Virus record (IMG/VR): IMGVR_UViG_3300017708_003257
Span: 1-26,066 of that record
DNA: 26,066 nucleotides
Origin: a virus
Direction: 5' to 3' (one strand)
The position numbers and the translations under genes are program-made. Below the pieces are notes generated by a model that was not told the origin of the DNA, searched no databases, and saw only the letters and a list, made by a program, of their open reading frames with translations. The first letter of the stretch is position 1. Every line of letters starts with the position of its first letter. This document shows positions 1,470 through 23,914 of the stretch, one piece after another.

Positions 1470-1868
1470 ATGCCAGTTAAGCGTTCGCGTAGTTTTAGGG
1501 ATATAAGTCTATCTTTTAAACGTCATCCCATAACAAACGACATAACAACTCTTAAAAATGAAGATGCGATCAAGAAATCAGTTATAAATCTGATCCGAAC
1601 TCGCATTGGAGAGAGATTTTTCAACGATTTGCTCGGAACATCTGTTGGTGATACACTTTTTGAATTAAGTACATTTGATAATGATGTATTAAGGGAAGAA
1701 GTTATTTCATTATTAAAAAATTTTGAACCTAGAATCGACCTGACCAACGTTTTCGTTGAGGGTCAGGATGATACTAACAGTTTATTCATTCAAATTGAGT
1801 ATGATATTACTGGATTACCACTTCCGACACAGAATATAGAGTTTATCTTACAACCTTCTAGGGTATAA
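1470..1868 (+). CDS. 25: Baseplate wedge protein gp25 (GPW/gp25 family)
   Basis: This 132-aa protein equals the length of T4 gp25. It shows the GPW/gp25 pattern: an N-terminal region, then ENAIK-like NEDAIKKSVINLIRTR (about residues 29-44), then IGERFFNDLLGTSVGDTLFE (about 46-65), and a C-terminal strand region with VEGQDD and IEYDITG. In T4, gp25 sits at the inner baseplate wedge, helps initiate sheath polymerisation and binds gp6. An older lysozyme claim for gp25 is not well supported. The ribosome binding site is weak, so expression may rely on the candidate promoter in the gap upstream. Its TAA overlaps the gene 6 ATG (TAATG), so the two are probably coupled, in keeping with equal assembly into wedges. 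Confidence 0.95.
   Translation: MPVKRSRSFRDISLSFKRHPITNDITTLKNEDAIKKSVINLIRTRIGERFFNDLLGTSVGDTLFELSTFDNDVLREEVISLLKNFEPRIDLTNVFVEGQDDTNSLFIQIEYDITGLPLPTQNIEFILQPSRV
1739..1767 (+). other. Potential RNA stem-loop inside gene 25
   Basis: Bases 1739-1745 (CCTGACC) pair with 1761-1767 (GGTCAGG), and 1746-1749 (AACG) pair with 1754-1757 (CGTT). This leaves a TTTT loop and a three-base bulge at 1758-1760. The result is 11 base pairs in two helices, which stands out in AT-rich coding sequence. No U-run follows, so it is not a terminator. It may be chance or a local mRNA structure. Confidence 0.3.
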
Positions 1869-3805
1869 TGTCATTTAACCAGTTTACCAACCTCGATTTT
1901 AATGATATAAGAACTCAGATTAAGGATTATCTGAGGTCGAACAGTAATTTTACGGATTTTGACTTTGAAGGATCCAATTTTTCTGTTCTAATTGACACGT
2001 TAGCATATAATTCATACGTTACTGCCTATAATACTAATATGGCAGTGAACGAATCGTTCATTGATAGCGCAACATTGAGAGAAAATGTTGTATCTTTGGC
2101 AAGAAATATTGGATATGTGCCTAGATCGAAAAGATCTTCAATTGCAACCGTAAGTTTTAGTGTAAATGTGAGTGCTGCTTCATTGCAGTCCAATTTTGGT
2201 GCCAGATCCGTGAAATTGAAGAAAGGCGTAGTCGCTTTGGGTGCTGCAAATAACTCAAATTACATTTTTTCAATTCCAGAAGACATTTCAGTAACTCCAA
2301 ACTCTGCAGGAGTAGCAGTATTCAGTGGAATTGAGATTTATGAAGGAAATTTACTGAAAAAAACCTTTACAGTAGACGATTCTCAACCAGATCAAAAATA
2401 TATTTTACCAAACAGTAATATTGACACCTCTACAATTCGTGTTTCGACGATTGGAACTAGTATAGAGGAATATACTCCATACGAAAACATTTTTAATGTA
2501 GAACCAGACACTCGTTTGTATCTTATACAAGAAATTGAAGATGAAAAGTACCAAATTCTCTTTGGTGACAACATTTTAGGTAAAAAACCCACCTCTGGTG
2601 ATAAAATTGAAGTCACTTATATTGAAACAAGTGGGTCCGCAGCAAATGGTGCATTGAATTTCACATTTTCCGGAAAACTAACATATTTGAAGGGTGGAAC
2701 TGAAACAAATATAACAAATAATATCTCCAATATAACGACCCTAGAAGCGTCTGTAAACGGTGATGAGATAGAAAGTATTGATACCATCAAATACCTCGCT
2801 CCTAGGGTCTATGCATCACAGTACAGAGCGGTTACTGCCAATGATTACACTAGTCTGATCCCTTTCCTATATCCAAATATAGAATCAGTATCAGCATATG
2901 GTGGTGAAGAACTTGATCCACCACAATATGGTAAAGTTTTTATCACAATTAAACCGAAAAATGGTGATACTCTTTCAGATGTAGCAAAAAATACCATTGA
3001 AAGTAAATTGAAGCAGTATACTATTGCTGGCATCAAACAAGAATTTTTAGATTTGAAATATTTGTACGTTGAGTATGATTCCACTGTTTCATACAGTCCA
3101 GGTTTGGTTACAAATAAGCAAGATCTTTTCAGCAGAGTTACGGCAGCAATTGAAAATTATGCAAAATCATCTGACATCAATTCTTTTGGTGGAAGATTGA
3201 AGTATAGTAAACTTCTTTCTCAGATTGATAATGTTGATAATGGAATTACCTCAAACATTACAAATCTTGTAATGAGAAGGAATTTAGTTCCTGCATTTAA
3301 TACTTTAGCAAATTATGAACTTTGTTATGCAAATAAATTCCATGCTGAGGTCGAAGGTTTCAATATCAGATCATCTGGATTTACAGTTTCTGGTATTGAA
3401 GGAACTCTTTTCTTAACCGATGTTCCTGACACTGATATTACCATACCGGGAAGACCACTTCAAGTAGAACCAAAGACTGGATCTATATCGGTTATCAAAT
3501 TTAATGAAAATAATCAAATTTTGACAGTTATTGAGAATGCGGGAACTGTTGATTACGTGAAAGGTGAAATTATTCTCTTCCCAATCAACATCTCGTCCAC
3601 ATCTCTTTCCAATCGTATTGAAATTGGAGTAACGCCAGAATCAAATGATATTGTTGCAAAAGAGAATCTTTATATTGTCCTAGATACTACAGGAAAAAGT
3701 GTTTTAACACTCAAAGAGGATTCACTCACTTCTGGATCTAATAGATCTGGTACTAATTACAATCCCCCTTCAAGTTACACCAGCAGCACGAAATTTACTC
3801 GATAA
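1868..3805 (+). CDS. 6: Baseplate wedge protein gp6 (baseplate J-like)
   Basis: This 645-aa protein is close to T4 gp6 (660 aa). The N-terminal part has FNQFTNLDFNDIRTQIKDYL (about residues 3-22), then SNFSVLIDTLAYNSYVTAYNTNMAVNESFIDSATLRENV. This is the typical start of the gp6/J-like family in T4-like cyanophages. The middle holds LYLIQEIEDEKYQILFGDNILGKKP and YLAPRVYASQYRAVTANDY (about 308-326), matching the J-like core. In T4, gp6 dimers form the ring that joins the wedges and binds gp25, gp53 and gp7. The start overlaps gene 25 by one base and the end lies three bases before the giant gene. The last 30 residues are a Ser/Thr/Asn-rich tail. Identification is firm from order, length and motifs. 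Confidence 0.94.
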   Translation: MSFNQFTNLDFNDIRTQIKDYLRSNSNFTDFDFEGSNFSVLIDTLAYNSYVTAYNTNMAVNESFIDSATLRENVVSLARNIGYVPRSKRSSIATVSFSVNVSAASLQSNFGARSVKLKKGVVALGAANNSNYIFSIPEDISVTPNSAGVAVFSGIEIYEGNLLKKTFTVDDSQPDQKYILPNSNIDTSTIRVSTIGTSIEEYTPYENIFNVEPDTRLYLIQEIEDEKYQILFGDNILGKKPTSGDKIEVTYIETSGSAANGALNFTFSGKLTYLKGGTETNITNNISNITTLEASVNGDEIESIDTIKYLAPRVYASQYRAVTANDYTSLIPFLYPNIESVSAYGGEELDPPQYGKVFITIKPKNGDTLSDVAKNTIESKLKQYTIAGIKQEFLDLKYLYVEYDSTVSYSPGLVTNKQDLFSRVTAAIENYAKSSDINSFGGRLKYSKLLSQIDNVDNGITSNITNLVMRRNLVPAFNTLANYELCYANKFHAEVEGFNIRSSGFTVSGIEGTLFLTDVPDTDITIPGRPLQVEPKTGSISVIKFNENNQILTVIENAGTVDYVKGEIILFPINISSTSLSNRIEIGVTPESNDIVAKENLYIVLDTTGKSVLTLKEDSLTSGSNRSGTNYNPPSSYTSSTKFTR

Positions 3806-3808
3806 GAA

Positions 3809-6800
3809 ATGTCAGATAGTAAAGTAAAAATCTCCAATATTCTGGAAAGTCAACTTCCAGAATTTATTTTAGATGACAATCCACTCTTCAAAGAATTTTT
3901 GGAGCAGTACTATCTGTCTCAGGAACATGAGTACGGAACAGTTGATCTTGCAGAAAATATTGCAAATTTAAAAAATATTGACAGTTTTGCGAAACTTAAA
4001 TTTACTGCAACAACACCAAAACTGACTAAGTTTATCGGAAACCTTGATAGTACTATCGAAGTTGATAATCATTTAGGTTTTCTACCTAAAAATGGACTTG
4101 TAAAGGTAAATAATGAAATTTTTACATACACTGGTAAATCATCGTATGCACAGAAAGTTGTTAGTTTTAATGCAACAAATAACACTATTCAACTTTCATC
4201 CTGTGTTGGTTTAGATTCTTTCAGAAATCAAAGTATTATTTTTGACAGGTCATTTTCATCGATTGTTGCTGGAAAAGTATATTATGTTACGCAAGTCATA
4301 GATTCTACTTCAATTACAGTTTCTGATGAAGCAAATATTCTTAATGATGTATATTCATTAACAAATGCTAACCCTATAAACTCATCAACACTTCCAAATG
4401 CGACTAGTTTCGCCTTTACTGGATGTATTCGAGGTTTTTGTGGTATTGATAATGTTGATGATGGTGATTCAGAATTTTTAAATTTCAACGTTACTAATTC
4501 CAGTTTTCATAGTGCAGGATCATCTCTCACTAACCTTGGTTTAGTCTTCTTAGCAGAATTTTTTAAAAAATATAAGAAACTATTTTTACCAGGAATTGAA
4601 GAACGACAATTCCAAAATGTTAATATCGATAATATCCTTTCAAGGGCAAGAGACTTTTACAGTTCAAAGGGAACAGACTCTTCTCTAAAAATTCTTTTTG
4701 GTGTTTTATTTGGAAAATTTGTTGAAGTTTTAAAACCATTTGATAATACAATTTTAGCATCGTATGCTGATTGGTCGCGTTCGGATATTGTAATTTTTGA
4801 AGCAATTAGTGGAGATCCATCTAAACTTCAAGAAACAACTTTATTACAAGGTTCGATCATCAGTCCAACTGCAAAGGGTGTAGTTGCAAGAAGACAAGAT
4901 GTATTTTTAGGAAGAAAAAAATACCATAAAATCTTTTTCTCGAAAGATTCTATTGAAAACAAATTCGTAGTTAATAAAAAAACTAAGGTCTTAGGAGTTG
5001 GTGTTACAGATACAACTTTGACTGTCGATTCTACTATTGGATTTCCTGAGAGTGGTTCATTTTTCAATTTAGAAAATGGTGAATATGCTGAGGTCACTTA
5101 TGGAAGTAAAAGTGCTAATCAATTTTTTGATTGCGTAGGTTTATCTACTTCTCTTGTAGAAAACGATCCAATTATTGATGGAAATTTGGTATACGGTTAT
5201 GAAGATAATGATATCAATAAACTTGTTACAATGCGAGTTGTCGGAACGGTTGTAGGACTTGATGACAATTCAAATACTAGTCAGTTTAGAAAAAACGATA
5301 CGATTTCAGTTAAGCATCTTGGAAAAAAAATAAAAGAAACAGATGTTAAATTTAATAGATGGTTTTATAATAATGTAACATATACTAATGGTAAAGGCAC
5401 TACGGCAACTGCTATTATAACTGAGGTAGATCATCATCTCAATGTTGATGATTATGTAGATGTAATAAGAGCAAGAGATAATAATGTTGTAGAATCAAAT
5501 CGTTTAGTCACATCGGTTAATAGTAGAACCGAATTCCAAATCAATACTGGCACCTTAACAGTTGATGAGAAATATATTGTAAGAAAGAGACTCGATTTTG
5601 CAAATTCAAATCTCAATAGCAAGGGTGTTTTATCAAATATTCAAAATACATTTGTAGATGATGATGAGAATACCTACGTAGCATTCTCAGGATTTCCTGG
5701 TTACAATGATGTGGACATCACAAACAGATCAAAAGAATTCCAATCTACTGCTGTAGATATGGTTGAAAATACAATTAATATTCCTAACCATAATTTTAAA
5801 AATGGTGAAAAATTATATTATCAGTTAATTTCGGGAATAAGTGGAATTTCTACGGGAAATTATTACGCTTCTGTAATTGATAATAATACCATTAAATTAT
5901 CACCTAGTCCCGCTTCACTTGATAATCAAATTTATTTCAATATTACCGGAATTTCAACTATTTCCGGAAGTCATACACACATATTAACTCCATCTTCTAT
6001 ATTTGGGTTAGATTTAGTTAATCAAAATAATTTCAAAAGAATATACAAGACACCACGACCAGCAACTAAACATGTTGATATTATTGGTCCAATCGGTGTT
6101 TCTTTAAATGGTATAGAATTAAATTCACCAATTGGAGAAGATTCAATTTTCTTTGGTCAAATAGATGCCATTAATGTTTTAAACAGTGGAAATGGTTATG
6201 ATGTCGTAAATCCTCCAAAAGTATCAATTACAGATAGCAATGGATCAGGTGTTTCTCTTGTCGGACAATACACAGGAACAATTGAAGATGTTATTTTAAC
6301 TAATAGTGGTTTTGATTATGTTGATACTCCTGTTGTAACAATTTCCGGAGGAAATGGAACTGAGGCGAGTGCAGAAGCAAGAATGAGAGGATTCAATCAC
6401 TCTGTATCTTTTAATGATTTCGGTGTAGATCTCATTGGTAATAAAATCACCATATCGGAAGATCACAAATTATTAGACGGTGAAGAAGTTAATTATTCTT
6501 CAACTGGAACTCCGATTGGTATTGGAAGCACCGCTGTTGGTTTTTCAACCACCAGACTTACATCTGGTGCGATATATTTTATTCACAAACTTAGTGATAC
6601 GGAACTTTCTTTACACACATCAAAAGAGAAAGCATTGGCTGGTATTGGCACGATTGACTTTAATGCTTTTGGTAATCAAACACATACGCTTAGGTCGAGA
6701 AAAATTAGAAAAATTATTGATAAAATTGTAATTACAAAATCCACCAATGATTTTTCCAATAAAAAAGTAATTGTTGATGCAGTATCTTGGCCCCCTGTGG

Positions 6801-9800
6801 ATCAGAAAGATTTATATTCTAGTTTTGTTGGAATCAATACTGAAAATAATTACATTTATGCAAGAAACCACTCTTTCAAAAATGGAGACAATGTAGAATA
6901 TTCGTTTGATGGTACTGCAATTTCTGGATTATCATCAGGAGTTAATTATAAAGTAACTATTTTAGATGAACATAGATTCTATTTGAGTGAAGCTGGTACG
7001 GCATCATCCATTAGTAGTGTTAACTATGAAAGAAAAATATATGAAAATCTTGCTAGTGTTGGTGTAGGAACTCATACATTCCAATATCCTAGTATCAATA
7101 TAACAATTAATGGATTAGTTTCAGTTGGTGAAACCAGTGGTATCCCCTCTTACTATAACGCCATTGGCACTCCTGTGGTCCTAGGAAGTCTTGATAATGT
7201 ATTCATCAGAAATGGTGGTGTAGGTTATGGTGTAACTAATTTGATAAACTATCAGAAAGATACTCTTGTAAAAGTTGAAACTGGAAAGGATGCAGATATC
7301 AAAGTTATTGTTGCCAATGGCAAAATAACCTCAGTTTATATTGCAAATTCTGGTTCAGAGTATACTACTCCACCAACAATTAACGTAGTTGGCGTAGGTA
7401 AATTAGCAAAATTAGTTGCTACTATTGTTGATGGTTCAATAACAGCGGTTGATATTATCAATCCCGGTGCTGGATACGAAGAAGGTACAACTGTTGAAGT
7501 TATTCCGACTGGTTCAGGTGCAAAATTAAACGCAGAAGTTCATGAATGGAAACTTAATAATGTTGAAAGATATGCAAATGCACTCTCTATTCCTAATAAC
7601 AGAGATCTAGTTCAGATTAAATCAAATTTAGCAGTAAAGCAAAATAAAGTAGTTTCTTTCTATCCAGGTAAAAAACTTCGTACAATATTAAATGATAATC
7701 TTGATAGTAATGGAGATGAAAAAACTTCTGGTTTAGATCACTCTCCAATTATTGGATGGGCATATGATGGTAATCCAATTTACGGTCCATATGGAAATGG
7801 AATTGCAATTTTTACTGATGGAAATACTGGTGGTAAGAAAAAAATAGTTTCCAGTTATGTAAAAGATATAGAAACTTCAACATTACTCAGACCACCTGGT
7901 TTTACTGAGGGTGTCTTTACTCAGGATTACGTTTATAAGGCAAGTGGTGATCTTGATGAGTATAATGGAAGATTCTGCATAACTCCGGAATTCCCTAATG
8001 GAACATATGCATATTTTTCTACATTAGATTCAAACAATAATCTCGCATATCCATATATTACAAAATCACACTACAATGAAACTGATTCGTTTAACTATGA
8101 TAGTTTAACCGATCAAAATGATTCAATTTTGAATAGCGGTTCATATAAGAGAAATGTAACTCATCTTGGATTAGATGATCTATCTAGAAACTATCCATTT
8201 TTACAAGATCCTCTTACTTCTAAAACACAACTTGATGTAAATGAAATAAAATTTGACAGAATTGATTCTATCACCGTAACAAATTCTGGTTCTGATTATA
8301 AAGTTGGAGAGCAAATTAATTTTAATGAACCATCAATTGATGCTGAAATTGATGAAATTGTAGGAAAAGATATTTTCAATATCACAACTTCAGACACAAT
8401 ATTAGAAAATACAATATTCAGTGTTGAAAACAATACAATTACCGGTATTACTACAATTCCACATGGTTTTTCTGATAATGACATTATTGAAATTTCTGGA
8501 ATTTCTTCTTCACTGTATAAAAATGTTGAAGGTTTTAGACAAATTGGAATAACCACACTCAGCAGTAGAATATCTGTTGCCATAGCAAATACAGCAACTA
8601 CTGGTCTCACAGCAGATATTCAATTATCGGACTCCACATTTACCGGAAAATTCCAGAAAGATGAAATTTTCAAAATTGGTAATGAGTTAATGCAAATTGT
8701 TGCTATTGATAATACTAATAACAAGTATAGAGTTACTAGAATTGTTAATGGTAGTTCTGGAAGTAGTCATTCGGCAGGAGCGGTAGTAACAAAACAGTTG
8801 CAGAAGTTTACCTTTGACATTGGTAAAAAATTAGAAAACAAAAATATAGATTTCAGTAATAAAGAAAATTTTGCTCTTTCTGCTGTTGGTATTGGTTCAA
8901 CCTATACTTCAGTTGTTGTTGGTACTGCTGGAAGCACAAACATAACTGTTTCAATTCCACCAAGAGCAATTTATTTAAGAAATCATAAATTCAATACTGG
9001 TGATCAATTAAGTATTGTTTCCGTTGGCGGAACAATTAATGCTTCTGCTAGTGCTAGTTTAGCAAATGCATTTGATATTTCTACCGTTGATCTTTTTGCT
9101 GTAAATGTTGCAACTGATTTTATTGGATTAGCAACATCAAAAGCAGGTGTCGCATCATCTTCTATTTTCTTTGTTAGTAATTCAACTGGAAATAATCATA
9201 CATTATCTCAAATAAAAAATAACCTGACTGGCATAGTTAAAAAGGTTTCTGCAAATGTTATCCTTAATGATTCACATACATTACGAGTAGACGATGAAGT
9301 TAAGTTCAATATAATTCCTAGTAAAACTCAAAAATTTACATTAAAATTTAATCAAACTCTCAAAAAACTTGTAGTTGATCCACAAACATTCCTCCCTGCA
9401 TCTATAACCTCATCAGAAGTTACGATTACAAATCATGGTTTAGAAACTGGTGATATTGTCATCTATACAAATTCTGTTGGTGTTGCAACACCTCTGCAAG
9501 ATAATAGACAGTATCATGTTATTAAGATATCCGATGATAAGTTTAAATTAGCAGAATCAGATTTTGATTCAAAATCATTCCCATATCAAAATATTAATAT
9601 AACTGAACAGGGACATGGAACACATGAAATTTCAAAAGTGAATCCAAAGTTAAATGTTATAAATGGTGGAAAATTAGCACTTAGTGTTTCTGACACTAGT
9701 TTGCAAGACTTTGATATTAATTTCTATACCGATGAAAGATTTAATTCTAGATATGAGTCTAAACTGATTAAGAGAGAAGGAACTATCGGTGATGGAGATC

Positions 9801-12800
9801 CCAATACTCAAATCGTATTTGATATTACAAATGATCTTTTAAATGAATTTTATTACAGAATTGAAGGAGATGACAATAAATTTACAAACACATATCCATC
9901 ATCTGTTGATGAAAATGTAGGTGAGTTTTCTAAAATTTCTATAGTAGACTCAAAATTCAATCAAAATTATAAAATTACGTCAATTGGATCAAGTACATTT
10001 GGATTCACTTTGGTTGGATCTGCAGAAACAACATCATATACTTCTGCAGGATTTAGTAGTGCATTCTATTCCACTAATTCTAAAAATGAAATTGGTGGAA
10101 TTCACTCAGTTAAAATTGTAAATCCTGGTAATAATACCAAAAGTTTCCCAGCAGTTGTTTCTATTGCAACTACCACAGGAAAAAATGCAGATTTAAAAAT
10201 AAACAGTAAAAAAGTTGGTGAAATTGTAGATGTAAAAGTTAGTCATCCTGGTATTGAATACTTAGAAGATAACACTCTTAAACCAAAAGCAAATAGTAAT
10301 ATTGTCCTTAAACTGATCAATACTAGAGTTTTAAAGGGAATCGGTATTGCCACTGCTGGATTTGATTATACTACTCCACCAACAGTTATTGGAATTGGAA
10401 ATAGCACTATCATAACAAGAGCAAATCTTCAAAGTGGTTCAGTTGAATCAGTTGATATTATTTCTAGTGATAGTAATTTAAGAGAAGATCTCAAAATTAT
10501 ACCAACAAATAATTCAAATGGTGTTAGTGTTATTGGAGCGGTTTCAAATTCACAAATAAACACCCTTTCATTAAAGGCACCTGTAAATGGATTTACTATT
10601 TTCCCATTTGCGATTGGAGATCAAATTTTCGTAGAAAATGTTCAGATTACTAATGATGTAGATGGATATAATTCTAGTGATTATGATTTCAGAACTTTCA
10701 CTGTAACTGCTAGAAATGTAATTGCTGGAACTGAAAGTATAAGTTACTCTATTGCTGGAATTGGATCTACTGGTGGAGACTACGATATAGCTCAAAATGC
10801 ACAATTTGGTAGAGTTATCAAATCAACTGATTTGGCATCTTTTACTCCGGAGTTTAAACCCATTAGATTCACAGAAGGTGAAAAGGTTATTGACATCAAT
10901 AATCCAAATGTATCTGGTATTGTAGTAAAAGATGGTTGGGATGAAAATTTAAATACTCTAAGACTTACAAATGTCATTGGAGAATTTACGGAAGAATCAG
11001 TAATTCGTGGTGTTGTAGGCAATTTCAAGGCGACCATTTCAGATATAACTGAATTTGATTTTGATTTGAAAGTAGGAAGCACCTCAAATGATTTTGGTAT
11101 TTGGAGAAATAATATTGGTAGACTAAATGATAGTCTTCAAAGAATTCATGATAACGATTACTATCAAAGATTTTCATATAGTATTCGTGGAGAAATTGCG
11201 TTAGAAAATTGGAAAGAATCAGTTGACAGTTTAGATCATACTGCTGGATATAAAAATTTCTCGGATTATCAAATTATTACTGAACCAGATTCAAAATTTG
11301 ATGATAATCGCACAGACACTGAAATTAATCTGAATGTTGAAATAGTTAGTGATGCGTCAGTTCATACAAGAATGAGTTATGATCTCGCATCAGAAGATAC
11401 AAATGCTCCCAATCTGTCTAAACTCATTATATTTGATTCCAAAGTAATTACTGACTATAATGAATCTAGAACCAACAAGGTTCTTATGATAGATGATATC
11501 AGTCCATCATTTACTGGTATTACAACAGGTGTTGGTGGTGGAATCATAGGATTAAGCACATTCTTTATAAAGAATAATGGCAATTCCCTTTTACATCATT
11601 CAGTTAATCCTGTAACTGGTATCAACACCACTGATGGTGTTATTACTATAACAGATCATAATTTTAACACTGGGGAAAAACTCATATACGATCCAACAAA
11701 TGCTGGAATTAATACTGGTGCATCTATCAGTATTGTGACTGACAGTGCTCCTGGTGTTGCCGCGACTAATCTTTTACCCACAGAAGTTTATGCGATCAGA
11801 ACTGGTGATGATACTTTCAAACTTGCTATTAGTAGAGATAAAGCAGTTGCTGGTGATACAGGAATAGCGATGACGTTCACCAATACTGTAGGTATTGGAC
11901 TTACTCAATCATTCTCAACAGAAACTGACCTTGCTTCGTCTAGAAGTATTATCACAATTGATAATATTATCCAAAGTCCTCTTGCAAGAAAAGATGTAAT
12001 TGTTGGTCTAGCAACTGCTGTTGGTATTGGATCAACACAAATTTCAGTAACAGATGTATCAAATATTGCAGGTAAGTCCCTCATTAGAATAGAAGATGAG
12101 ATACTTAAAGTGGATCTAGTCGGTGTAGGAGCGACCAATGTGCTTAATATTCAGAGAGGGGCAATGGGTACAGTTGCTGCTGCACATACCGTTGGTGCCG
12201 CTACTACAATAGTCTCCGGTGATTATAGAATCAATCAGGGTAAAATATATTTCAGTGATCCACCATATGGACCCGCTGGAATTGGTAACTTGACAACTAG
12301 ATCAACTTTTTCTGGAAGAATCTATTACAGATTGAACTATAATACCAATCTTATTATGGATGACATCTCAGAACAGTTTGATGGAACTACGGATCAGTTT
12401 AGTATTGTTCAAAATGGTATTGGTGTAACTGGAATCACTACAAGTTTTGGAGCGGTATTAATTAATAATATTTTCCAGAAACCTTTCTTTGGTGATGTTG
12501 GTTCTATCTTGCGATCTGATTATAGAGTTGTAAAAACAAACACTGGGGAAGATCTTGATTTTACTGGATCTAACTTAAATGAGGATCTTCCTCGTGGTGG
12601 CATAATTAATGAATTTACAGTTGGTGTTGGTAGCAATTATCAAGTTCCTACTCGTGCTATTGGTGTTGCAGTTGTAAATGGTTCCGGTGTAATTACAGGA
12701 GTCACTGTTGGTCTGGGCACCACGGGTGTTCGCTCTGGTGGTGCTGGGCACTTATTCCCACCAAACGTTTCGATTGCAGACACACTTGGTGGTGGAACCG

Positions 12801-14398
12801 GTGCTGCGGTTACTGCAACTGTTGGCGCTGCAGGAACAATTACCGGATTTACTGTTGTATCTGGTGGTACTGGATATAGTCAATCAGCACCACCCAAAGT
12901 GTTCACAGATGAACCAGCACCGTATACAGGTTTATCAATGACTGGTGGCAGTGGTTCTGGTGCCAAGATGGATGTTACAGTTGGAACTGGTGGTAGTGTT
13001 ATTGGATTTAATATTTCGGATCGTGGTATTGGATACGAAGTTGGAGATGAATTATTCTTAACTGGTCTTCCATTTAATCCAGTCGGAGTTGGATCCACTG
13101 ATTTCAGTATTACTGTCAAGAACAAATATCAAGATAAGTTCTCTGGATGGATATTTGGACAATTATTGGAACTTGATGATTTCAGCAACCAATTCAATGG
13201 CGCTAGAAAATCATTCCTACTCACTAGAACCATTGCAAGTACAGAATATTATAGTATTGTTGCACAACCTGGTAGAGGAATAGTTCTTGCCAACAACTTA
13301 ATGATTTTCCTGAATGATGTTCTACAAAAACCAGGAATTGATTATATATTCAATGGAGGCACAAGATTAACATTTAACGAAGCACCAAAACCAGGAAGTA
13401 ATTTTAAAATTTACTTCTATACTGGTTCTGATCAAGACTTCCTTTCAATTGATATTGATGAATCAGTAAAACCTGGTGATAGATTAAGATTACAAAGACA
13501 AGATTTTGTTATTAGTCAAAATGAGAGGACCATTTACGAATTAATCGCTTCTGATACTGTTCAAACTGATACTTATGCTGGTGTCGGTATTGTTACTGAT
13601 ACATCATTCCTAAGACCAGTAGAATGGACTAAACAAACTTCTGATGTTATTATAGATGGTCAAATTATTTCTAAGGAAAGATCTTACCTTGAACCTCTTT
13701 ATCTGCCATCAACTAATATAATTGCTTCGATTGGTTCTACTGATAATGAAATATATGTTGAAGATTGTTGGTCATTCTCAAGAATTGATGATCTTGGACA
13801 GACATTGAATGATATCCGAGTTGTTGGACTGGGAACTACTGCAAATGTTGAGCAGATTAAAAAAGTCACTTATGAAGGTGATTTTGGAAATATTACTGCC
13901 ATTGGAGCAAGTGCGGTAGGAATTGGAACCACCACACCAAAGATTGAATTTACCCTTACACCAAATCCAACAATTTATAATCCAACTCCAAATACTAAAC
14001 AAATTTCAAGACCAGGTATTTCTACGGGTGATTATTTTGTGATTAGAAATACTACTCTTGGTGCCGGAGTCACATCAATAGATAATCACACAGATAATAT
14101 TGTTGCAGTCGGTGCAAGTTTTATTGATAATGTCTATCGTGCTGCAAAAGTAGTATCTATCGGATCATCTTCAGTTATTGTATCTGCTAACGTAAAATCT
14201 TTGGCAGGAATCAATACTCTTACACAACCAACTGATCTTGCAACTTTTGGTACTTATAGTTGGGGTAAGATAAATACAGGGGATAGACCAGTAGCAACTG
14301 CAAAATCATTTACTTTCCATAATACAAATGGTAATGCTGGTATTAATACCTCGGCGCACATCTCAAGACTTATTCAGTTAAGAGTTGCCTACACATAG
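3809..14398 (+). CDS. Giant modular baseplate/tail protein at the gene 7 position, 3529 aa
   Basis: One uninterrupted 3529-aa frame lies between wedge genes 6 and 8, the place of T4 gene 7 (1032 aa). I see no sequence resemblance to T4 gp7. Residues 1-330 look like a structural head, with NPLFKEFLEQYYLSQE (about 25-40) and AEFFKKYKKLFLPG followed by RARDFYSSKGTDSSLKILFG (about 247-300). The rest is beta-rich and modular. It has six copies of an H-x-F/L-x-x-G-D/E module, glycine-rich NxGxGY segments, an EIxxV...H..GA module and three DDIS-x-x-F modules near the C-terminus. A YHYH-type domain with WAYDGNPIYGPYG lies at about 1310-1405. The protein ends in a cyanophage-like YSWGKI tail. It has no signal peptide or membrane segment. 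Presumably it is the wedge's long peripheral arm, or a fusion of wedge and fibre functions. The coding call is certain; the role is inferred. Confidence 0.85.
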   Translation: MSDSKVKISNILESQLPEFILDDNPLFKEFLEQYYLSQEHEYGTVDLAENIANLKNIDSFAKLKFTATTPKLTKFIGNLDSTIEVDNHLGFLPKNGLVKVNNEIFTYTGKSSYAQKVVSFNATNNTIQLSSCVGLDSFRNQSIIFDRSFSSIVAGKVYYVTQVIDSTSITVSDEANILNDVYSLTNANPINSSTLPNATSFAFTGCIRGFCGIDNVDDGDSEFLNFNVTNSSFHSAGSSLTNLGLVFLAEFFKKYKKLFLPGIEERQFQNVNIDNILSRARDFYSSKGTDSSLKILFGVLFGKFVEVLKPFDNTILASYADWSRSDIVIFEAISGDPSKLQETTLLQGSIISPTAKGVVARRQDVFLGRKKYHKIFFSKDSIENKFVVNKKTKVLGVGVTDTTLTVDSTIGFPESGSFFNLENGEYAEVTYGSKSANQFFDCVGLSTSLVENDPIIDGNLVYGYEDNDINKLVTMRVVGTVVGLDDNSNTSQFRKNDTISVKHLGKKIKETDVKFNRWFYNNVTYTNGKGTTATAIITEVDHHLNVDDYVDVIRARDNNVVESNRLVTSVNSRTEFQINTGTLTVDEKYIVRKRLDFANSNLNSKGVLSNIQNTFVDDDENTYVAFSGFPGYNDVDITNRSKEFQSTAVDMVENTINIPNHNFKNGEKLYYQLISGISGISTGNYYASVIDNNTIKLSPSPASLDNQIYFNITGISTISGSHTHILTPSSIFGLDLVNQNNFKRIYKTPRPATKHVDIIGPIGVSLNGIELNSPIGEDSIFFGQIDAINVLNSGNGYDVVNPPKVSITDSNGSGVSLVGQYTGTIEDVILTNSGFDYVDTPVVTISGGNGTEASAEARMRGFNHSVSFNDFGVDLIGNKITISEDHKLLDGEEVNYSSTGTPIGIGSTAVGFSTTRLTSGAIYFIHKLSDTELSLHTSKEKALAGIGTIDFNAFGNQTHTLRSRKIRKIIDKIVITKSTNDFSNKKVIVDAVSWPPVDQKDLYSSFVGINTENNYIYARNHSFKNGDNVEYSFDGTAISGLSSGVNYKVTILDEHRFYLSEAGTASSISSVNYERKIYENLASVGVGTHTFQYPSINITINGLVSVGETSGIPSYYNAIGTPVVLGSLDNVFIRNGGVGYGVTNLINYQKDTLVKVETGKDADIKVIVANGKITSVYIANSGSEYTTPPTINVVGVGKLAKLVATIVDGSITAVDIINPGAGYEEGTTVEVIPTGSGAKLNAEVHEWKLNNVERYANALSIPNNRDLVQIKSNLAVKQNKVVSFYPGKKLRTILNDNLDSNGDEKTSGLDHSPIIGWAYDGNPIYGPYGNGIAIFTDGNTGGKKKIVSSYVKDIETSTLLRPPGFTEGVFTQDYVYKASGDLDEYNGRFCITPEFPNGTYAYFSTLDSNNNLAYPYITKSHYNETDSFNYDSLTDQNDSILNSGSYKRNVTHLGLDDLSRNYPFLQDPLTSKTQLDVNEIKFDRIDSITVTNSGSDYKVGEQINFNEPSIDAEIDEIVGKDIFNITTSDTILENTIFSVENNTITGITTIPHGFSDNDIIEISGISSSLYKNVEGFRQIGITTLSSRISVAIANTATTGLTADIQLSDSTFTGKFQKDEIFKIGNELMQIVAIDNTNNKYRVTRIVNGSSGSSHSAGAVVTKQLQKFTFDIGKKLENKNIDFSNKENFALSAVGIGSTYTSVVVGTAGSTNITVSIPPRAIYLRNHKFNTGDQLSIVSVGGTINASASASLANAFDISTVDLFAVNVATDFIGLATSKAGVASSSIFFVSNSTGNNHTLSQIKNNLTGIVKKVSANVILNDSHTLRVDDEVKFNIIPSKTQKFTLKFNQTLKKLVVDPQTFLPASITSSEVTITNHGLETGDIVIYTNSVGVATPLQDNRQYHVIKISDDKFKLAESDFDSKSFPYQNINITEQGHGTHEISKVNPKLNVINGGKLALSVSDTSLQDFDINFYTDERFNSRYESKLIKREGTIGDGDPNTQIVFDITNDLLNEFYYRIEGDDNKFTNTYPSSVDENVGEFSKISIVDSKFNQNYKITSIGSSTFGFTLVGSAETTSYTSAGFSSAFYSTNSKNEIGGIHSVKIVNPGNNTKSFPAVVSIATTTGKNADLKINSKKVGEIVDVKVSHPGIEYLEDNTLKPKANSNIVLKLINTRVLKGIGIATAGFDYTTPPTVIGIGNSTIITRANLQSGSVESVDIISSDSNLREDLKIIPTNNSNGVSVIGAVSNSQINTLSLKAPVNGFTIFPFAIGDQIFVENVQITNDVDGYNSSDYDFRTFTVTARNVIAGTESISYSIAGIGSTGGDYDIAQNAQFGRVIKSTDLASFTPEFKPIRFTEGEKVIDINNPNVSGIVVKDGWDENLNTLRLTNVIGEFTEESVIRGVVGNFKATISDITEFDFDLKVGSTSNDFGIWRNNIGRLNDSLQRIHDNDYYQRFSYSIRGEIALENWKESVDSLDHTAGYKNFSDYQIITEPDSKFDDNRTDTEINLNVEIVSDASVHTRMSYDLASEDTNAPNLSKLIIFDSKVITDYNESRTNKVLMIDDISPSFTGITTGVGGGIIGLSTFFIKNNGNSLLHHSVNPVTGINTTDGVITITDHNFNTGEKLIYDPTNAGINTGASISIVTDSAPGVAATNLLPTEVYAIRTGDDTFKLAISRDKAVAGDTGIAMTFTNTVGIGLTQSFSTETDLASSRSIITIDNIIQSPLARKDVIVGLATAVGIGSTQISVTDVSNIAGKSLIRIEDEILKVDLVGVGATNVLNIQRGAMGTVAAAHTVGAATTIVSGDYRINQGKIYFSDPPYGPAGIGNLTTRSTFSGRIYYRLNYNTNLIMDDISEQFDGTTDQFSIVQNGIGVTGITTSFGAVLINNIFQKPFFGDVGSILRSDYRVVKTNTGEDLDFTGSNLNEDLPRGGIINEFTVGVGSNYQVPTRAIGVAVVNGSGVITGVTVGLGTTGVRSGGAGHLFPPNVSIADTLGGGTGAAVTATVGAAGTITGFTVVSGGTGYSQSAPPKVFTDEPAPYTGLSMTGGSGSGAKMDVTVGTGGSVIGFNISDRGIGYEVGDELFLTGLPFNPVGVGSTDFSITVKNKYQDKFSGWIFGQLLELDDFSNQFNGARKSFLLTRTIASTEYYSIVAQPGRGIVLANNLMIFLNDVLQKPGIDYIFNGGTRLTFNEAPKPGSNFKIYFYTGSDQDFLSIDIDESVKPGDRLRLQRQDFVISQNERTIYELIASDTVQTDTYAGVGIVTDTSFLRPVEWTKQTSDVIIDGQIISKERSYLEPLYLPSTNIIASIGSTDNEIYVEDCWSFSRIDDLGQTLNDIRVVGLGTTANVEQIKKVTYEGDFGNITAIGASAVGIGTTTPKIEFTLTPNPTIYNPTPNTKQISRPGISTGDYFVIRNTTLGAGVTSIDNHTDNIVAVGASFIDNVYRAAKVVSIGSSSVIVSANVKSLAGINTLTQPTDLATFGTYSWGKINTGDRPVATAKSFTFHNTNGNAGINTSAHISRLIQLRVAYT
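5771..11914 (+). repeat. Six dispersed copies of a ~70-90-aa protein module in the giant gene
   Basis: The copies lie at about 5771-5983, 6446-6691, 6851-7085, 8969-9211, 9419-9634 and 11639-11914. Each opens with a strand, then [NDE]H-x-[FL]-x-x-G-[DE]-x-[VIL], for example NHNFKNGEKLYY, DHKLLDGEEVNY, NHSFKNGDNVEY, NHKFNTGDQLSI, NHGLETGDIVIY and DHNFNTGEKLIY. A Tyr/Val strand and a [DE]-x-x-[FIL]-x-L motif follow, and most copies end with G-x-x-HT or similar. A shortened copy (IPHGFSDNDIIEISG) lies at about 8440-8503. The copies are diverged in DNA, so this is old protein-level duplication, not a recent DNA repeat. The fold is unknown; the alternation suggests small beta domains. Confidence 0.8.
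6163..13085 (+). repeat. Glycine-rich NxGxGY beta-repeat segments in the giant gene
   Basis: Segments lie at about 6163-6390, 7195-7550, 8263-8330 (one unit), 10095-10480 and 12605-13085. Each unit reads roughly I-x-x-[VI]-x-[VI]-x-[NS]-x-G-x-[GD]-Y, then PP-x-[VI]-x-[IV], then a Gly/Ala-rich turn and a further strand. Examples are VLNSGNGYDVVNPPKVSI, IANSGSEYTTPPTINV, IINPGAGYEEGT and VVSGGTGYSQSAPPKV. The period is about 35-45 residues, suggesting a beta-solenoid or stacked beta sheets. Related units occur in gp8 and in the DUF4815 protein downstream. Confidence 0.75.
7736..8050 (+). other. Degenerate YHYH-type domain in the giant protein
   Basis: Residues about 1310-1412 carry HSPIIGWAYDGNPIYGPYG, then a spacer, then LDEYNGRFCITPEFPNGTYAYF. 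This is the layout of YHYH-family domains, which normally read DG-x-PIYGP, LDECNG, TPE and GTYHYH. Here the naming YHYH motif is YAYF and the Cys of LDECNG is Tyr, so both histidines are gone. The metal-binding or enzymatic potential suggested for the family is therefore doubtful, and a purely structural or glycan-binding role is more likely. The domain match is from memory of the motif. Confidence 0.65.
11488..13435 (+). repeat. Three DDIS/LDDFS modules in the C-terminal third of the giant gene
   Basis: Copies begin near 11488 (DDISPSFTG), 12358 (DDISEQFDG) and 13170 (LDDFSNQFNG). The last two continue with an aromatic strand and a motif of the form [IL]-x-N-x-[IV]-[FL]-Q-K-P (NNIFQKPFF and NDVLQKPGIDY). 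The third adds RLTFNEAPKPGSNFKIYFYTG. This unit resembles repeating beta domains in phage tail and fibre proteins. The first copy is shortened. Between copies lie glycine-rich segments and one EIL-K-V...RGAMGT...H module (about 12070-12215), whose diverged partner is at about 8664-8795. Confidence 0.65.
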
Positions 14399-14406
14399 TA
14401 TAAATA
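14399..14406 (+). promoter_or_regulatory. Perfect T4-type late promoter TATAAATA before gene 8
   Basis: TATAAATA begins directly after the TAG stop of the giant gene (14396-14398), inside a 27-base gap, 19 bases upstream of the gene 8 ATG at 14426. It is an exact match to the T4 late promoter, recognised by RNA polymerase with gp55, gp33 and the gp45 clamp. Transcription would begin only a few bases before gene 8, giving a very short leader. It would drive gene 8, the DUF4815 gene and the 74-aa gene. Confidence 0.8.
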
Positions 14407-16010: not shown

Positions 16011-19000
16011 ATGACCCAGAACACCAATCTAAATGTCTCGCCTTATTTTGATGATTTTAATGAGGACAAGAACTATAATAAGGTACTGTTCAAACCTGGA
16101 TTTCCAATTCAGTCTAGGGAACTAACTACATTACAGTCTATTCTTCAGGGACAGATTGAAAAGTTTGGACAGCACTTCTTTAAAGAAGGGTCAATGATTG
16201 TGCCTGGTGGTATATTTTATGATAATAAGTATTTTGCAGTCAGAATTGATCCCACTTTCTTAGAAGTTCCTGTTACTGCATATATCTCTTATCTTAAAGA
16301 TAACAATATTGAGATTCAAGGTGAGACTTCTGGTGTTAGGGCAACTGTGGTCAATTGCCTTACAAATATTGAGTCCGAAGAATCTTTTGATACCTTATAC
16401 ATCAAATATACTGCCTCTGGAACTGATGGTGTAACAACAGAATTCTTAGATGGTGAAAACTTAATTACATTAGAAGATATTAATTTTTCATCAACTACTA
16501 TTACTGCAAATAATCAATTTGCAAGATGTATTGTTTCAGAATCTACAAAAATTGGATCTTCTTCATCAATTAATGAGGGAGTATTTTTTGTTAGAGGATA
16601 TTTCGTAAAAGTACCTGCAAGTACTGTAATTTTAGATCAATATACAAATTCACCTAGTTACAAAGTAGGTCTTCAAATTTCAGAGGATATTGTAACCGCT
16701 TCTTCTGAAAATCCTGATTTATTTGATAACGCTAAGGGATTTTCAAACGAGTCTGCACCAGGTGCAGATAGATTTAAAGTATCTGCAGTCCTTACTAAGA
16801 AATCACTAACAGATAATGAGGATGCTAATTTTGTAGAACTGTTGCGTGTAGATAATGGAATTGTAGAAAAACTAGTCAATAAAACTGATTATAGTATTTT
16901 TAAGGATGAACTCGCAAGAAGAACATATGACGAGTCAGGAGACTATTATATTAGACCATTTGCTGTTGATATTAGAGAATCTTTAAACGATAGAATTGGT
17001 AACAAAGGTGTTTATTTGCCCGGTCAATTGACTCAGGATGGCAATACTCCTTCTGATGATCTCTTTTCACTTCAAATTTCTTCAGGTAAAGCATACGTAA
17101 GAGGATATGAAGTTGACAAAATTTCTTCTACTTCGGTTGATGTTCCAAAACCAAGAACTACAAGAGAAAAAGAAAATATTAGTGTTCCAGTCAGAATTGG
17201 AAATAATCTCCAAGTAGAAAATGTTTATGGTTCACCAACTATTGGTGTCAATAACACATATACAGTTCAACTGAAAGATCAAAGACTCAACTCCGCCGGA
17301 TTAACTCAGGGAAATGTAATTGGAAATGCCAGAGTTTATGACTTTGGTAAAAAGAGTATATCAGGTATTAGTACAGAAAGATTTGACTTAAAATTATTTG
17401 ATATTCAAACGTTTACCACTCTGACAATTGCACTTGGTGTCACTGCTAACGATACTGCATTTGTAAGGGGCAAATTTAGTGGTGCAAGCGGTCATCTCAA
17501 AGATGCAATTACCAATGGAACATCTCTTGACCTAAGAGACGTGCAAGGACAGTTCCAAATCAATGAACCACTTACAATCAATGGACTTGAAGTGGGTAGA
17601 AATATCACAGCAATTAGAGATAATGATATAAGCGATGTAAAATCAGTTGGTAGAAGTGTTGGCGTTTCTACTTTTGCTGCTAATGTTGCGCTCACTAAGG
17701 AAAAGGGTCTTTTCCCAGTTGGTGCATCCTTCAATATTAATCATACAAATAATAAGGTAACTTCACCATCTGTTGGAGACTTCAGACAACTTGTGAATGT
17801 TGGTGATATTGTCAAATTCTCTAAACCAGGTGGGTCTCTACCAACTTTCAACAGAGTAAGCGCAGTCGCTATCAACGATGCTACATTAGCCGCCGTACAG
17901 AACGTTGTAGGAGTGTGTGATGGATCTCTTACTGGTAGTACGATTAATGTTACTGACTTTGCCGTTATTTCTGGTGTCTTAGAAAAAGCGGGTGAACCAG
18001 GAAAGACGATTAGTCTTCCTAATCAAAATATTTCTTCTATCAATCTTCTTGACAGTAACTATATTGTAAGGAAGCAGATTAGCAAAAATATAACTACAAC
18101 TGCATTCACATTCCAACTAAGTGATCTTGGTGATAATGATTTATTCTTAGAACCATATACTGAAAATAATTATACGTTAACTTGGGAAGATGGACATAAA
18201 GAAATTATACTTGATTCCCAAGTTACGGTTGCCAATGACCTCAGATCACTTGAATTCAAGTCACTTTCTAAGACTGGTAACGCAACCCTCACTATCACAT
18301 GCAAGAGAAGTAAATTAACTTCAAAGGCAAAAACAATTACAAGATGCGCTAATTTAGTTATATCAAGGTCTATGAATGGTGGATCAGGAGTTGGATCTAC
18401 TACATTTAATGACGGACTAACGTTTAATAATGTCTACGGAACAAGAGTTCAGGACGAAACTATTTCTCTAAATGTTCCAGATGTTGTTAGAGTTCTTGGT
18501 GTTTTTGAATCTAATGATACCAATAATCCAGATCTTCCATCTATCACTGCTTCTAATCAGAGTGATACATTTTCCAATAATGTGACCATTGGAGAACAAT
18601 TTATTGGTGCATCGTCAGGAGCAGTTGCCCGTGTTGTTGACATTGTAAGTGGCACTCAACTTAATTTCGTATATGAAAACGATAAGAAATTTGAATTAGC
18701 AGAATCAATTACATTACAAACTTCTGGTATCATCTGCACAATATCAACTCTTCTGCTTGGTGATAGAGAGGTAAGTGATGATTATACCTTAGATAGTGGT
18801 CATAGAAAAGAATTCTGTGATATTGCAAGGATTAATAGAAAATCAGGTTCTAATGAACCAACTAGAAGACTTAGAATTGTTTATGATCATATTGCAACTG
18901 ATGAAAGTACTGGAACAGTAGAATCTATTAACAGTTACAATACTCTCGATTATTCAACAGAAATTCCAGTATTTTTTGGTAAAAGAGCATCTGACGTTAT

Positions 19001-22000
19001 TGATTTAAGACCAAGAGTTGATACTTACGATCTTTCCTCAACAGATTCACCATTTGCATTTGAATCAAGATCATTTGCAAACTCAAAATCAGAAACTGCA
19101 GTATCCAATAAAACCATAATCTTAGACTATGCATACTATCTCGGTAGAATTGATAGATTGTATTTGACCAAGGAAGGAGAGTTTCAGGTTAAAGTAGGAG
19201 AACCTTCCGAATATCCAAAAATTCCAGTTGCAAATAGTGAAGGATTTGAAGTTGGTGTTATTGGAATGCAACCTTATGTATTTGATGCAACCTTTGACAC
19301 CAATTTGACACTTGTTCCACACAAGAGATTCACCATGAAAGATATTGGTGGTCTGGAAAATAGAGTTAAGAATCTTGAAAATTACACTACATTATCTTTA
19401 CTCGAAACTGATACTAAAAATCTATCAATTAAAGATCCCAATACTGGACTCGATAAGTTTAAATCTGGTTTCTTTGTAGATAATTTTAGAAATCATGATG
19501 GTTCTAATTTAAGAGGAGAATCGAAATTTGATATTGACTTAAAACGCGGAGAAATGCGTCCACGTTCTACAGAAAGAAATGTTACATTACAGTTTGAAAC
19601 TGTAACAACTCAAGCAGACTTTGCAAATGCTGACTATGCTTGGGCAGATGATTTTTCTGATAGTAATGCAACCAGAAATGGTCCAGGTTTGACACTGAAC
19701 TTTACTGAAGTTGAATTAATCGATCAACCACTTGCAACTAGAACAGAAAATTTAAACCCATATCACATTGCATTATATGCTGGATCAATAGACTTATCTC
19801 CTGCAACAGATTTCTGGATTGAAGAAGTCATTCTTCCAACTCCCGATATTGTTAAAGTTGATTCCGTATTCAACAGTATGTCAGAATTGCTTGGTGTTGA
19901 GGATCGTGAAAATGGCGGTATGGCAGCAAGTTGGTGGAATTCTTCCGAATTTACTTGGAGCGGAAGAACCAATTTACTTGCAGAAAGAGTTACTGGTAGT
20001 ACGGTAATTGGTTCTTCAAGTAGTAGCAGTAGTAGCACTAGAATTGAGCGTGGTAATCAAGGTATTCGTAGGGTTACTACTAACAGAACCAGTTCTTCAA
20101 CTACTTTTAGAGACACTATCCAACAAACATTATCCGAAGCTGGTACTGAAAGAATATTTGGTCTCGATCTTAGTTCTGGTCAAGAGGATATTAGTCTTGG
20201 AGACAGAATTATTGGTGTGGATATCATCCACAACTGTCGTTCTAGAAATCTGCAGGTAACTGGTAAGAGACTAAAACCAAATACAAGATATTATGTTTTC
20301 ATGGAAAATGTTGACATGAATGAGTTTGTATTCCCTAAAAATCTTCCCATCAAGATGACTAAGGGTGCATTCAAAACTGCTGATATTGTAGAAACAGTTG
20401 ATGGTTATGTGCAAGGATCTGCAAGTCTTCTTTTCCGTACAGCACAGCATGACCATGAAACTGGACCATTCAATAAACCAATAAAGACAGTCCCTGGACG
20501 TAGTTCTTCTTATTCTGGAACCTCAAATATTATAAACATCGATGTTGCAGGTCTCTCTAATCAAACTGACCCAAGAGCTCTTGGTTATATCAAACAAGGG
20601 ATGGTTATTGTTAATGCAGATGGAACAGCAGAAGCAGTTGTTGAAAACACACATTTAGTAACTGACGAAAAAGGTGATATTGAATTTTCAATTCATATTC
20701 CGGATCCAACTCTTGCTGCGAATCCCAAATTTACTGTTGGAACAAATACAATTAGACTAACTTCATCACAAACAAATGCATCTATCTTAGATCCAGGGGA
20801 CAGTTCTGCTGAAACTGAATATAGTGCGACTGGATATGCTGCAAGTGTCGAAGAGCAAGTTCTCGCAATTAAAACCCCAGAAATTGAAAGAAGACAGATA
20901 GGAACTCAACCGGCATCAAGACTTAGAACTAATCAAACAACCAGAACGAGAACAGAAAGATCATCTTCCAGTTCTACTAATACTGGTGCTTGGTATGATC
21001 CACTTGCCCAATCTTTCTTAATTGATACCGATCAAGCAGGACCAGCATCTGATGGTGTATTCATTACTGGTGGTGATTTATTCTTCAAGACTAAGGATCC
21101 TAGAATTCCCGTAACTGTTCAAATCAGAACTATGAGGGACGGCACCCCAACTACAACCATTGTACCGTTTGGTCAGGTTAACATTGAGTCAGCAGATGTA
21201 AATGTATCTACTGACGGTAGTGTAGCAACAAACTTCAAATTTAATACTCCTGTATATCTCCAATCTGGTTATGAATATGCTCTGGTGCTTGTATCACCCA
21301 CAGAAAAATATCTGACATTCATCACTAGAATGGGCGAAGAAGATCTCCGTCTAAAATCAGTTTATAACAAGCAACCATATCTTGGTTCACTGTTCAAATC
21401 ACAAAACCAGTCAACCTGGACTCCAAGTCAATTAGAAGACCTGAAATTCAAACTCAATAAAGCGAAGTTTGTAACAGATACTCCAGTATCAGTTTCATTC
21501 TTTAACAGTGAACTTCCAGTAGGAAAGATCAAAAAGAATAATCCAGTCACTGCATACTCTAAGAGGCAATTTGTTGGAATTGCAGCAACAAACACTGCGT
21601 TTGGACTTGGCAATGAAATTAGACAAGGCAATAATAATGGTAAGATATTTGCAACTGGTGGTCCATTATCAGTTAAAACTTCTCCTAATGAGAGCATCCT
21701 GGCACTAGTTCAACCAACTGCTGGTGTTGGTTTGACAAATGGAACATTTACCGGCATTGGGTTCGCAACACTTACTGGTTTTGGTAGTTCCTGCACAGCA
21801 ACTGTAACTGTTGGAGGTGGATCAGTTACTCAAATTCAGGTCACTAATGGTGGTGCTGGATATCAAGTTGGAGATCTTCTGTTGATGAATCAACTTGGTT
21901 CTACTGGAAGTGGAGTGAGAGTTAACGTAGGTGTTTCGACCAGAACTAACTTGCTGGTTGTTGATAATGTTAAGAATAACATTTCTGCTGGAACTGCATA

Positions 22001-23534: not shown

Positions 23535-23542
23535 TATAAATA
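23535..23542 (+). promoter_or_regulatory. Perfect T4-type late promoter TATAAATA before the 113-aa gene
   Basis: TATAAATA starts two bases after the TGA of the 74-aa gene (23530-23532), in a 40-base gap, 30 bases upstream of the ATG at 23573. The exact match and intergenic placement parallel the promoter before gene 8. It would start a transcript for the 113-, 74-, 520- and 55-aa genes and gene 13. Confidence 0.8.
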
Positions 23543-23572: not shown

Positions 23573-23914
23573 ATGGCAGCATATGTAAGCAACATTACAA
23601 TTGACGTTGGTGCAAATTTTGACCAATCGTTTAATCTTGAGAGTAGTGCTAACGCTCCATTAGATCTGACGGGATTTACTGGCACTTCAAAATTGAAAAA
23701 ATCAGCAGCATCATTATCAACTGCTGCTTCCTTTGTTGTTTCATTTCCCAATAGAACACAAGGACAATTGCAAATTTCCTTAGGATCGTCAATTACTGCT
23801 GGATTGAAACCTGGTAGATATGTATATGATGTTCTTTTGAGCGACCCCTCATCACTTAAAACCAGAGTGGTAGAGGGTAGTGCTATCGTCACAGCCGGAG
23901 TTACTACGAGTTAA
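23573..23914 (+). CDS. Small virion-type protein, 113 aa (beta-sandwich-like)
   Basis: This 113-aa protein starts MAAYVSNITIDVGANFDQSF. A strand-rich body follows, with LDLTGFTGTSKLKKS (about residues 31-45), then LKPGRYVYDVLL (about 80-91) and KTRVVEGSAIV (about 98-108). The layout 'interaction strand, LTG, GRYVYD, VVEG' is a pattern I know from small structural proteins of cyanomyoviruses next to the fibre genes. It suggests a compact beta fold like those of baseplate accessory or fibre-adaptor proteins. It follows a perfect late promoter and lies five bases before the next gene. The exact role is unknown; an adaptor or decoration role at the tail is inferred. Confidence 0.8.
   Translation: MAAYVSNITIDVGANFDQSFNLESSANAPLDLTGFTGTSKLKKSAASLSTAASFVVSFPNRTQGQLQISLGSSITAGLKPGRYVYDVLLSDPSSLKTRVVEGSAIVTAGVTTS

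Follow-up and report, generated by a model that had tools for sequence, protein, structure and literature searches.

A giant protein between baseplate genes 6 and 8 of a marine cyanophage is probably a T4 gp7 orthologue with a split core

The stretch of DNA analysed here (the window, 26,066 nucleotides) is a 26-kb virus fragment represented by a single contig, and among isolates it comes closest to marine Synechococcus phages (56% identity to S-SSM7 gp6). On its plus strand, to which all gp7 features described below also belong, it carries a run of baseplate genes: (i) gp25, a baseplate wedge subunit (1470..1868) that precedes gene 6; (ii) gp6, a baseplate wedge subunit with Pfam Gp6 domains (1868..3805); (iii) the giant gene considered in this study (3809..14398), which starts after a gap of 3 bp; (iv) gp8, a baseplate wedge subunit with the Pfam Phage-Gp8 domain (14426-16006), located 27 bp downstream; and (v), after gene 8, a gene for a VrlC-type protein with DUF4815 (16011..23315, 2434 aa). 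This gp25-gp6-gp7-gp8-VrlC synteny is common to the window, P-HM2 and pelagiphage HTVC008M, and is also found in Sinorhizobium phage phiM7 with one extra ORF. Upstream of gp25 lies a ferredoxin-type auxiliary gene (PHROG 3704, 57-713); in S-CAM9, too, a ferredoxin gene immediately precedes gp25. Exact copies of the T4-type late promoter box TATAAATA number only two on both strands scanned (14399-14406, directly after gp7, and 23535-23542, before an ORF at 23573); both are in gaps between ORFs, and their count in the window is not above chance. The window gp8 comprises 526 residues vs. 334 in T4, and its insert (residues 217-318) has matching modules within two giant gp7s, at 40% over 106 aa in S-SZBM1 (E=3e-15) and also in Syn9; this suggests an exchange of modules between wedge proteins.

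The giant ORF encodes 3529 aa followed by a stop codon, without any internal stop, and the corresponding protein has a computed mass of 382 kDa and a pI of 5.0. Since the longest stop-free run in 100 Markov shuffles of this segment is 184 aa, it is not a chance frame; the intact 10.6-kb frame reported in the preliminary description is thus confirmed, with Pfam-supported neighbours on both sides. Most of the protein is covered, in five stretches, by the profile of PHROG 2885 ('baseplate wedge subunit', E=0, 2278 bits). Uncultured IMG/VR relatives share 92-99% identity with it over residues 1-664, and the 92%-identical one has nearly the same length (3526 aa).

A tblastn search with the first 397 residues revealed relatives in no fewer than 460 phage records. 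Almost all of these are Synechococcus or Prochlorococcus phages, and many of the matches are already named 'baseplate wedge initiator' or gp7. The gp7-position protein of the 16 isolates checked ranges from 3,007 to 7,351 aa (S-SSM7 3007, S-PM2 3048, S-RSM4 3515, S-CAM9 3884, S-8S55 3891, SynMITS9220M01 4067, P-TIM68 4307, S-CAM7 4314, P-HM2 4454, S-SCSM2R 5172, P-SSM2 5195, S-MbCM100 6064, Syn9 6076, Syn19 6483, S-SZBM1 6619, P-TIM40 7351), placing the window protein near the short end, and the median among 41 complete IMG/VR relatives is 3540. The giant protein, initially thought to make this phage unusual, is therefore a feature of every marine cyanomyovirus checked. Of the points that the preliminary description named as refuting its idea, homologues of similar length and the same architecture are abundant, but no solved baseplate of a marine T4-like cyanophage in which they are placed was found.

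The first of two anchors that tie this protein to T4 gp7 is a core with a KGT motif (DFYSSKGTDSSLKILFGVLFG, KGT at 287-289), which together with the start of the beta domain occupies residues 241-400 (4529..5008). When a cyanophage head profile was compared with a profile of T4-type gp7 by hhalign, window residues 276-378 aligned with T4 gp7 727-814 (E=1e-9). Among 17 single T4 proteins, gp7 alone matches the head profile (E=2e-6 vs. 0.08 for the best of the 16 others), and reversed-sequence controls of this test gave no match. A separately built alignment has T4 gp7 729-758 as its top PDB match (E=1e-5), followed by phage KP1 gp7. When the 291 ORFs of 11 T4-like loci were scanned, the first 11 places went to the 11 gp7 genes (E<=2.4e-7), the next ORF scoring 0.35; a tblastn search at relaxed E additionally matched query residues 278-307, around DFYSSKGTDSSLKILFGVLFG, to gp7 of enterobacterial and other T4-like phages. 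All E-values quoted for T4 come from the round-1 profile, since T4-like gp7s had entered the model by round 2, which made that round partly circular. The direct similarity to T4 is limited to about 30 strongly conserved residues with weaker flanks and, because the core alone is conserved, the gp7 resemblance is easily overlooked; a phmmer search of the PDB with a single N-terminal sequence does not find T4 gp7, and a profile search is needed. The preliminary description had seen no resemblance to T4 gp7, a statement that the match of the KGT core to T4 729-758 in independent profile tests overturns. Its placement of a giant wedge protein in the gp7 position is borne out by the gene order and the core profile matches. 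Both the homology at the first anchor and the gene order are demonstrated by these data, and we regard it as nearly certain that the window gene is an orthologue of T4 gene 7.

Upstream of this core, the N-terminal helical segment (residues 1-66, 3809..4006) would correspond to the start of the wedge helical bundle. The core profile picks up the N-terminal segments of five short gp7s (BUCT-ZZ01, YB07, phiM7, HTVC008M and EXVC030M), and residues 8-204 of phiM7 gp7 align with T4 642-829. By transitivity, window residues 1-66 would be equivalent to T4 gp7 643-689, the region of the Pfam helical domain (Gp7_helical, PF21428), for which no Pfam match was obtained in the window gp7 itself. Between the helix and the core lies a variable wing insert (residues 67-240, 4007..4528), the most divergent part of the protein; the distance from helix 1 to KGT is about 70 residues in the shortest gp7s, 258 in the window and 680 in S-SZBM1. 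Conservation within the gp7 lineage is highest at residues 1-66 and 241-400, so that the 'conserved head' of about 330 residues proposed earlier holds for these two stretches, while residues 67-240 in its middle are the most variable of all. The most divergent and most gapped portion of the wing, around residues 101-200 (4109-4408), is the sole hypervariable stretch within the lineage, and the wing may form an exposed surface that evolves rapidly.

The second anchor (NDSLQRIHDNDYYQRFSYSIRG..WKE..DHTAGY) occupies residues 2384-2510 (10958..11338). By blastp, the C-terminal end of phiM7 gp7 (1006 aa) matches window residues 2430-2514, and a profile of window residues 2380-2620 detects the short gp7s of BUCT-ZZ01 (9e-12), phiM7 (2e-10) and YB07 (9e-9), with matches at residues 287-382, 927-991 and 378-441, respectively. 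Matches to the T4 family are weak (T4 811-911, E=3e-5; T4 alone 865-907, E=6e-4) and fall in the expected place, and in the ORF scan with this anchor one other ORF of Cr30 scores equally well. As the direct T4 match is weak, the case for the second anchor draws on colinearity and on the short gp7s, to which its relationship is clear, and we regard this anchor as well supported.

With the glycine of KGT as one landmark and the tryptophan in 'ENWKES' as the other, we found a spacing of 135-136 residues in five T4-type gp7s (136 in T4 itself). In the short gp7s it amounts to 260 (BUCT-ZZ01), 320 (YB07), 432 (EXVC030M), 584 (HTVC008M), 609 (Cr30) and 863 (phiM7), and in the giants to 1637-1648 (S-RSM4/S-PM2), 2180 (window) and up to 2850 (S-SZBM1). 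The landmark interval of T4 is largely domain V (Pfam Gp7_5th, 766-861); this position, together with the spacing, points to the giant protein being a gp7 that has gained some 2,000 residues there by insertion. A split architecture, in which the core would be present as two colinear pieces around a large insertion, is in our view very probable. What is new here is the evidence for the gp7 name and this split architecture, the name itself being already in GenBank for several cyanophages; a literature search confined to open-licence papers found none describing the split. Overall, we put the probability that the window protein is a T4 gp7 orthologue with a split core, an inserted beta arm, a variable wing and a C-terminal tail at roughly 85%.

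The beta arm (residues 379-2383, 4943..10957), i.e., the insertion of about 2,000 residues in the region of T4 domain V, contains many repeat modules. It is followed, beyond the second anchor, by a junction with repeat modules (residues 2511-2780, 11339..12148) and a tail with 'LNxxLQxPGxDY'-type modules (residues 2781-3529, 12149..14395), the C-terminal tail of the giant gp7 taking up about 1,000 residues past that anchor. Using profiles seeded from the protein itself, we identified four repeat types with 21 copies in total, which account for 28% of its length; at least two of these types were found in every giant tested, and T4, Aeh1, phiM7, YB07 and BUCT-ZZ01 lack all four. The earlier picture of everything beyond the head as repeated beta modules in a chain is thus correct in part: the 21 repeats and the mostly beta secondary structure predicted in the two slices modelled agree with it, while the repeats cover 28% only. 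The AlphaFold2 models of these slices are of low confidence (residues 1-664, pLDDT 61, pTM 0.32; residues 2700-3529, pLDDT 59), and Foldseek searches with both returned no match with E<0.001, the T4 baseplate chains appearing for residues 1-664 only at E of about 0.06. Endoxylanase matches of the tail (E 0.05-0.09) and a Pfam match to E1_FCCH (E 0.18) were insignificant and were set aside.

Repeat modules of kinds resembling fibre modules raise the question of whether the giant gp7 is mainly a receptor-binding protein or adhesin, with the arm and tail acting as built-in fibres or tip adhesins and the core as their anchor. The variability of the tail fits such a role, as its length differs most between phages and tracks the total length of the giants more closely (r=0.95) than those of the wing (0.75) or the insertion (0.56). 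The same can be said of an annotation of one relative as 'large exoprotein' and of S-SSM7, in which a distinct, neighbouring ORF holds the matches to two stretches of the window tail (2781-3023 and 3042-3230). That ORF, SSSM7_103 (from 26090 in the S-SSM7 locus), comes after the genuine gp7 and likewise bears the gp7 label; its similarity is to the tail of the window protein, not to the core. Its separate existence indicates that the tail is probably a detachable unit. In two related IMG/VR gp7s, which have the core and insertion in common, one protein ends 158 residues past the W landmark and the other runs on for 1315; the shorter may possibly reflect a premature stop, a gene split or an assembly error. 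However, the sequence of the tail is conserved about like that of the core within the close lineage (67% vs. 72% identity) and is hardly gapped, hypervariability being confined to wing residues of about 101-200, and this level of conservation is more in keeping with a structural arm than with a tip that binds receptors. In addition, fold and sequence searches with the tail (the former from the low-confidence model) gave no significant receptor-binding match. An adhesin as the main function of the protein is therefore unlikely in our judgement.

For the preferred reading of a structural wedge protein, it is relevant that relatives are virion components. S-SZBM1_208 (6619 aa), whose gene we checked to be in the gp7 position, was found in virions by LC-MS (71 in the peptide column of the table, 13.5% coverage; PMC9146016), and the Synechococcus-enriched cluster T4-GC969, the label borne by the 6483-aa gp7-position protein of Syn19, was found in S-SM1 particles (PMC3037559). 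Absence from virions, which would have spoken against a baseplate role, is thus at odds with the virion proteomics of relatives. T4 gp7 is a monomer present in six copies per tail (PMC3004832). By extension, the orthologue in the window would be the wedge monomer that pairs with a gp6 dimer; both core pieces would fold together and dock on this dimer as they do in T4, and six copies per virion would be expected. The insertion would then leave the wedge as a long modular arm, with the tail as a second arm, and the two might take over the peripheral scaffolding that T4 builds from the N-terminal extension of its gp7 and from gp10/gp11/gp12. Our guess is that such arms would serve to arrange how fibres are attached or how the baseplate changes state, and would not themselves bind a receptor. 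The arms have about an even chance of forming a peripheral scaffold.

Genes g10, g11 and g12 are among the T4 genes listed as missing in the first cyanomyovirus genomes (review, PMC2984593), although in the Syn9 record the gene after gp7 is labelled 'T4 gp10-like'; the arms may thus make up for a periphery that is missing. A further proposal, that six giant gp7 arms replace, each within one polypeptide, the gp10/gp11/gp12 pins and short tail fibres of T4, is tentative, and we consider it rather unlikely. If it were true, the number of modules per gp7 would set the baseplate outline and the attachment of fibres.

Between the two core anchors lies the C-terminal half of a YHYH domain (residues 1308-1409, 7730..8035; PF14240 positions 89-185 of 193, E=6e-23), which is found in all marine giants long enough to test and was not detected in the short non-enteric gp7s. 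The YHYH domain is a predicted zinc-dependent hydrolase (PMC7824862). This match and its presence in the marine relatives could be taken to mean that the protein carries an enzymatic activity against the cell wall or surface, its size being that of an enzyme carrier. Against this, the match lacks the first half of the domain, the segment expected to hold the histidines reads YAYF, the remaining His is not invariant, and the YHYH string is absent from the whole window gp7, making the predicted zinc hydrolase activity unlikely. A structural relic is the likelier interpretation of this region from its sequence, and an enzymatic role of the giant protein is highly improbable.

Also highly improbable is the reading of PMC7029224, according to which cyano- and pelagimyophages lack T4 gp7 and have VrlC (DUF4815) in its stead; the giant would then be a fibre-like structural protein, unrelated to gp7, that lies by chance between genes 6 and 8. 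The 'putative fiber' label of the Syn9 version and the failure of the single-sequence phmmer search agree with it, but the core profile gives exactly one gp7 per locus and, in a scan for the gp7 core only, matches none of the VrlC proteins scanned, phiM7 and HTVC008M have both gp7 and VrlC, and PDB and PHROG profiles independently tie the giant protein to gp7.

Retention of gp7 also revises some annotations. The gp7 of pelagiphage HTVC008M is gp055 (1016 aa, 9727-12777 of its locus), annotated as 'head closure Hc2' (PHROG 3465), and that of pelagiphage EXVC030M is an unnamed/hypothetical protein (874 aa, 7186-9810 of its locus). PHROG 3465 is likely mis-named, as it matches gp7 proteins, and PHROG 460 is probably mis-named too. 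Sequence evidence thus indicates that marine cyanophages, as well as SAR11 phages with their shorter versions, keep gp7, contrary to PMC7029224. Two landmarks locate gp7 in diverse T4-like phages and mark the site where about 2,000 or more residues are inserted in a baseplate wedge protein, which helps to interpret the baseplate of these abundant ocean viruses, whose structure is unsolved.

Compared with known systems, the window protein has the KGT core and the position between gp6 and gp8 in common with T4 gp7 (1032 aa; PDB 5HX2, 5IV5) and, more weakly, the second W-motif segment. The differences are that T4 gp7 has about 640 residues N-terminal to the core, whereas the window core begins at residue 1, and that the landmarks are 136 residues apart in T4 and 2,180 in the window, which also adds a tail of about 1,000 residues. 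Neither the T4 N-terminal extension (1-640) nor domain VI (PF21456) has a match in the window gp7; as PF21456 is also missing from the short non-enteric gp7s, it appears peculiar to the T4 branch and not defining for gp7. A minimal version of the wedge protein is gp17 (242 aa) of Vibrio phage XM1, a simple contractile phage, which is described as the T4 gp7 orthologue in a (gp6-like)2-gp7 wedge module (PMC10457771). The short non-enteric gp7s (YB07 503 aa, BUCT-ZZ01 607, Cr30 767, EXVC030M 874, phiM7 1006, HTVC008M 1016) resemble the window protein in having an N-terminal core followed by the second anchor, without a T4-type N-terminal extension, and differ from it in landmark spacing (260 to 863 vs. 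2,180). Finally, gp7s of marine cyanomyoviruses ('baseplate wedge initiator', PHROG 2885/4406/701) share with the window protein the position after gp6, colinear similarity along most of the chain, the split core, the YHYH-like half domain and module types. Their identity to it is only about 30-40%, and most isolates measured have a shorter wing, the exceptions being Syn9 and S-SZBM1; with S-CAM9 gp7, the homology is colinear over nearly the whole length at 32-38% identity.
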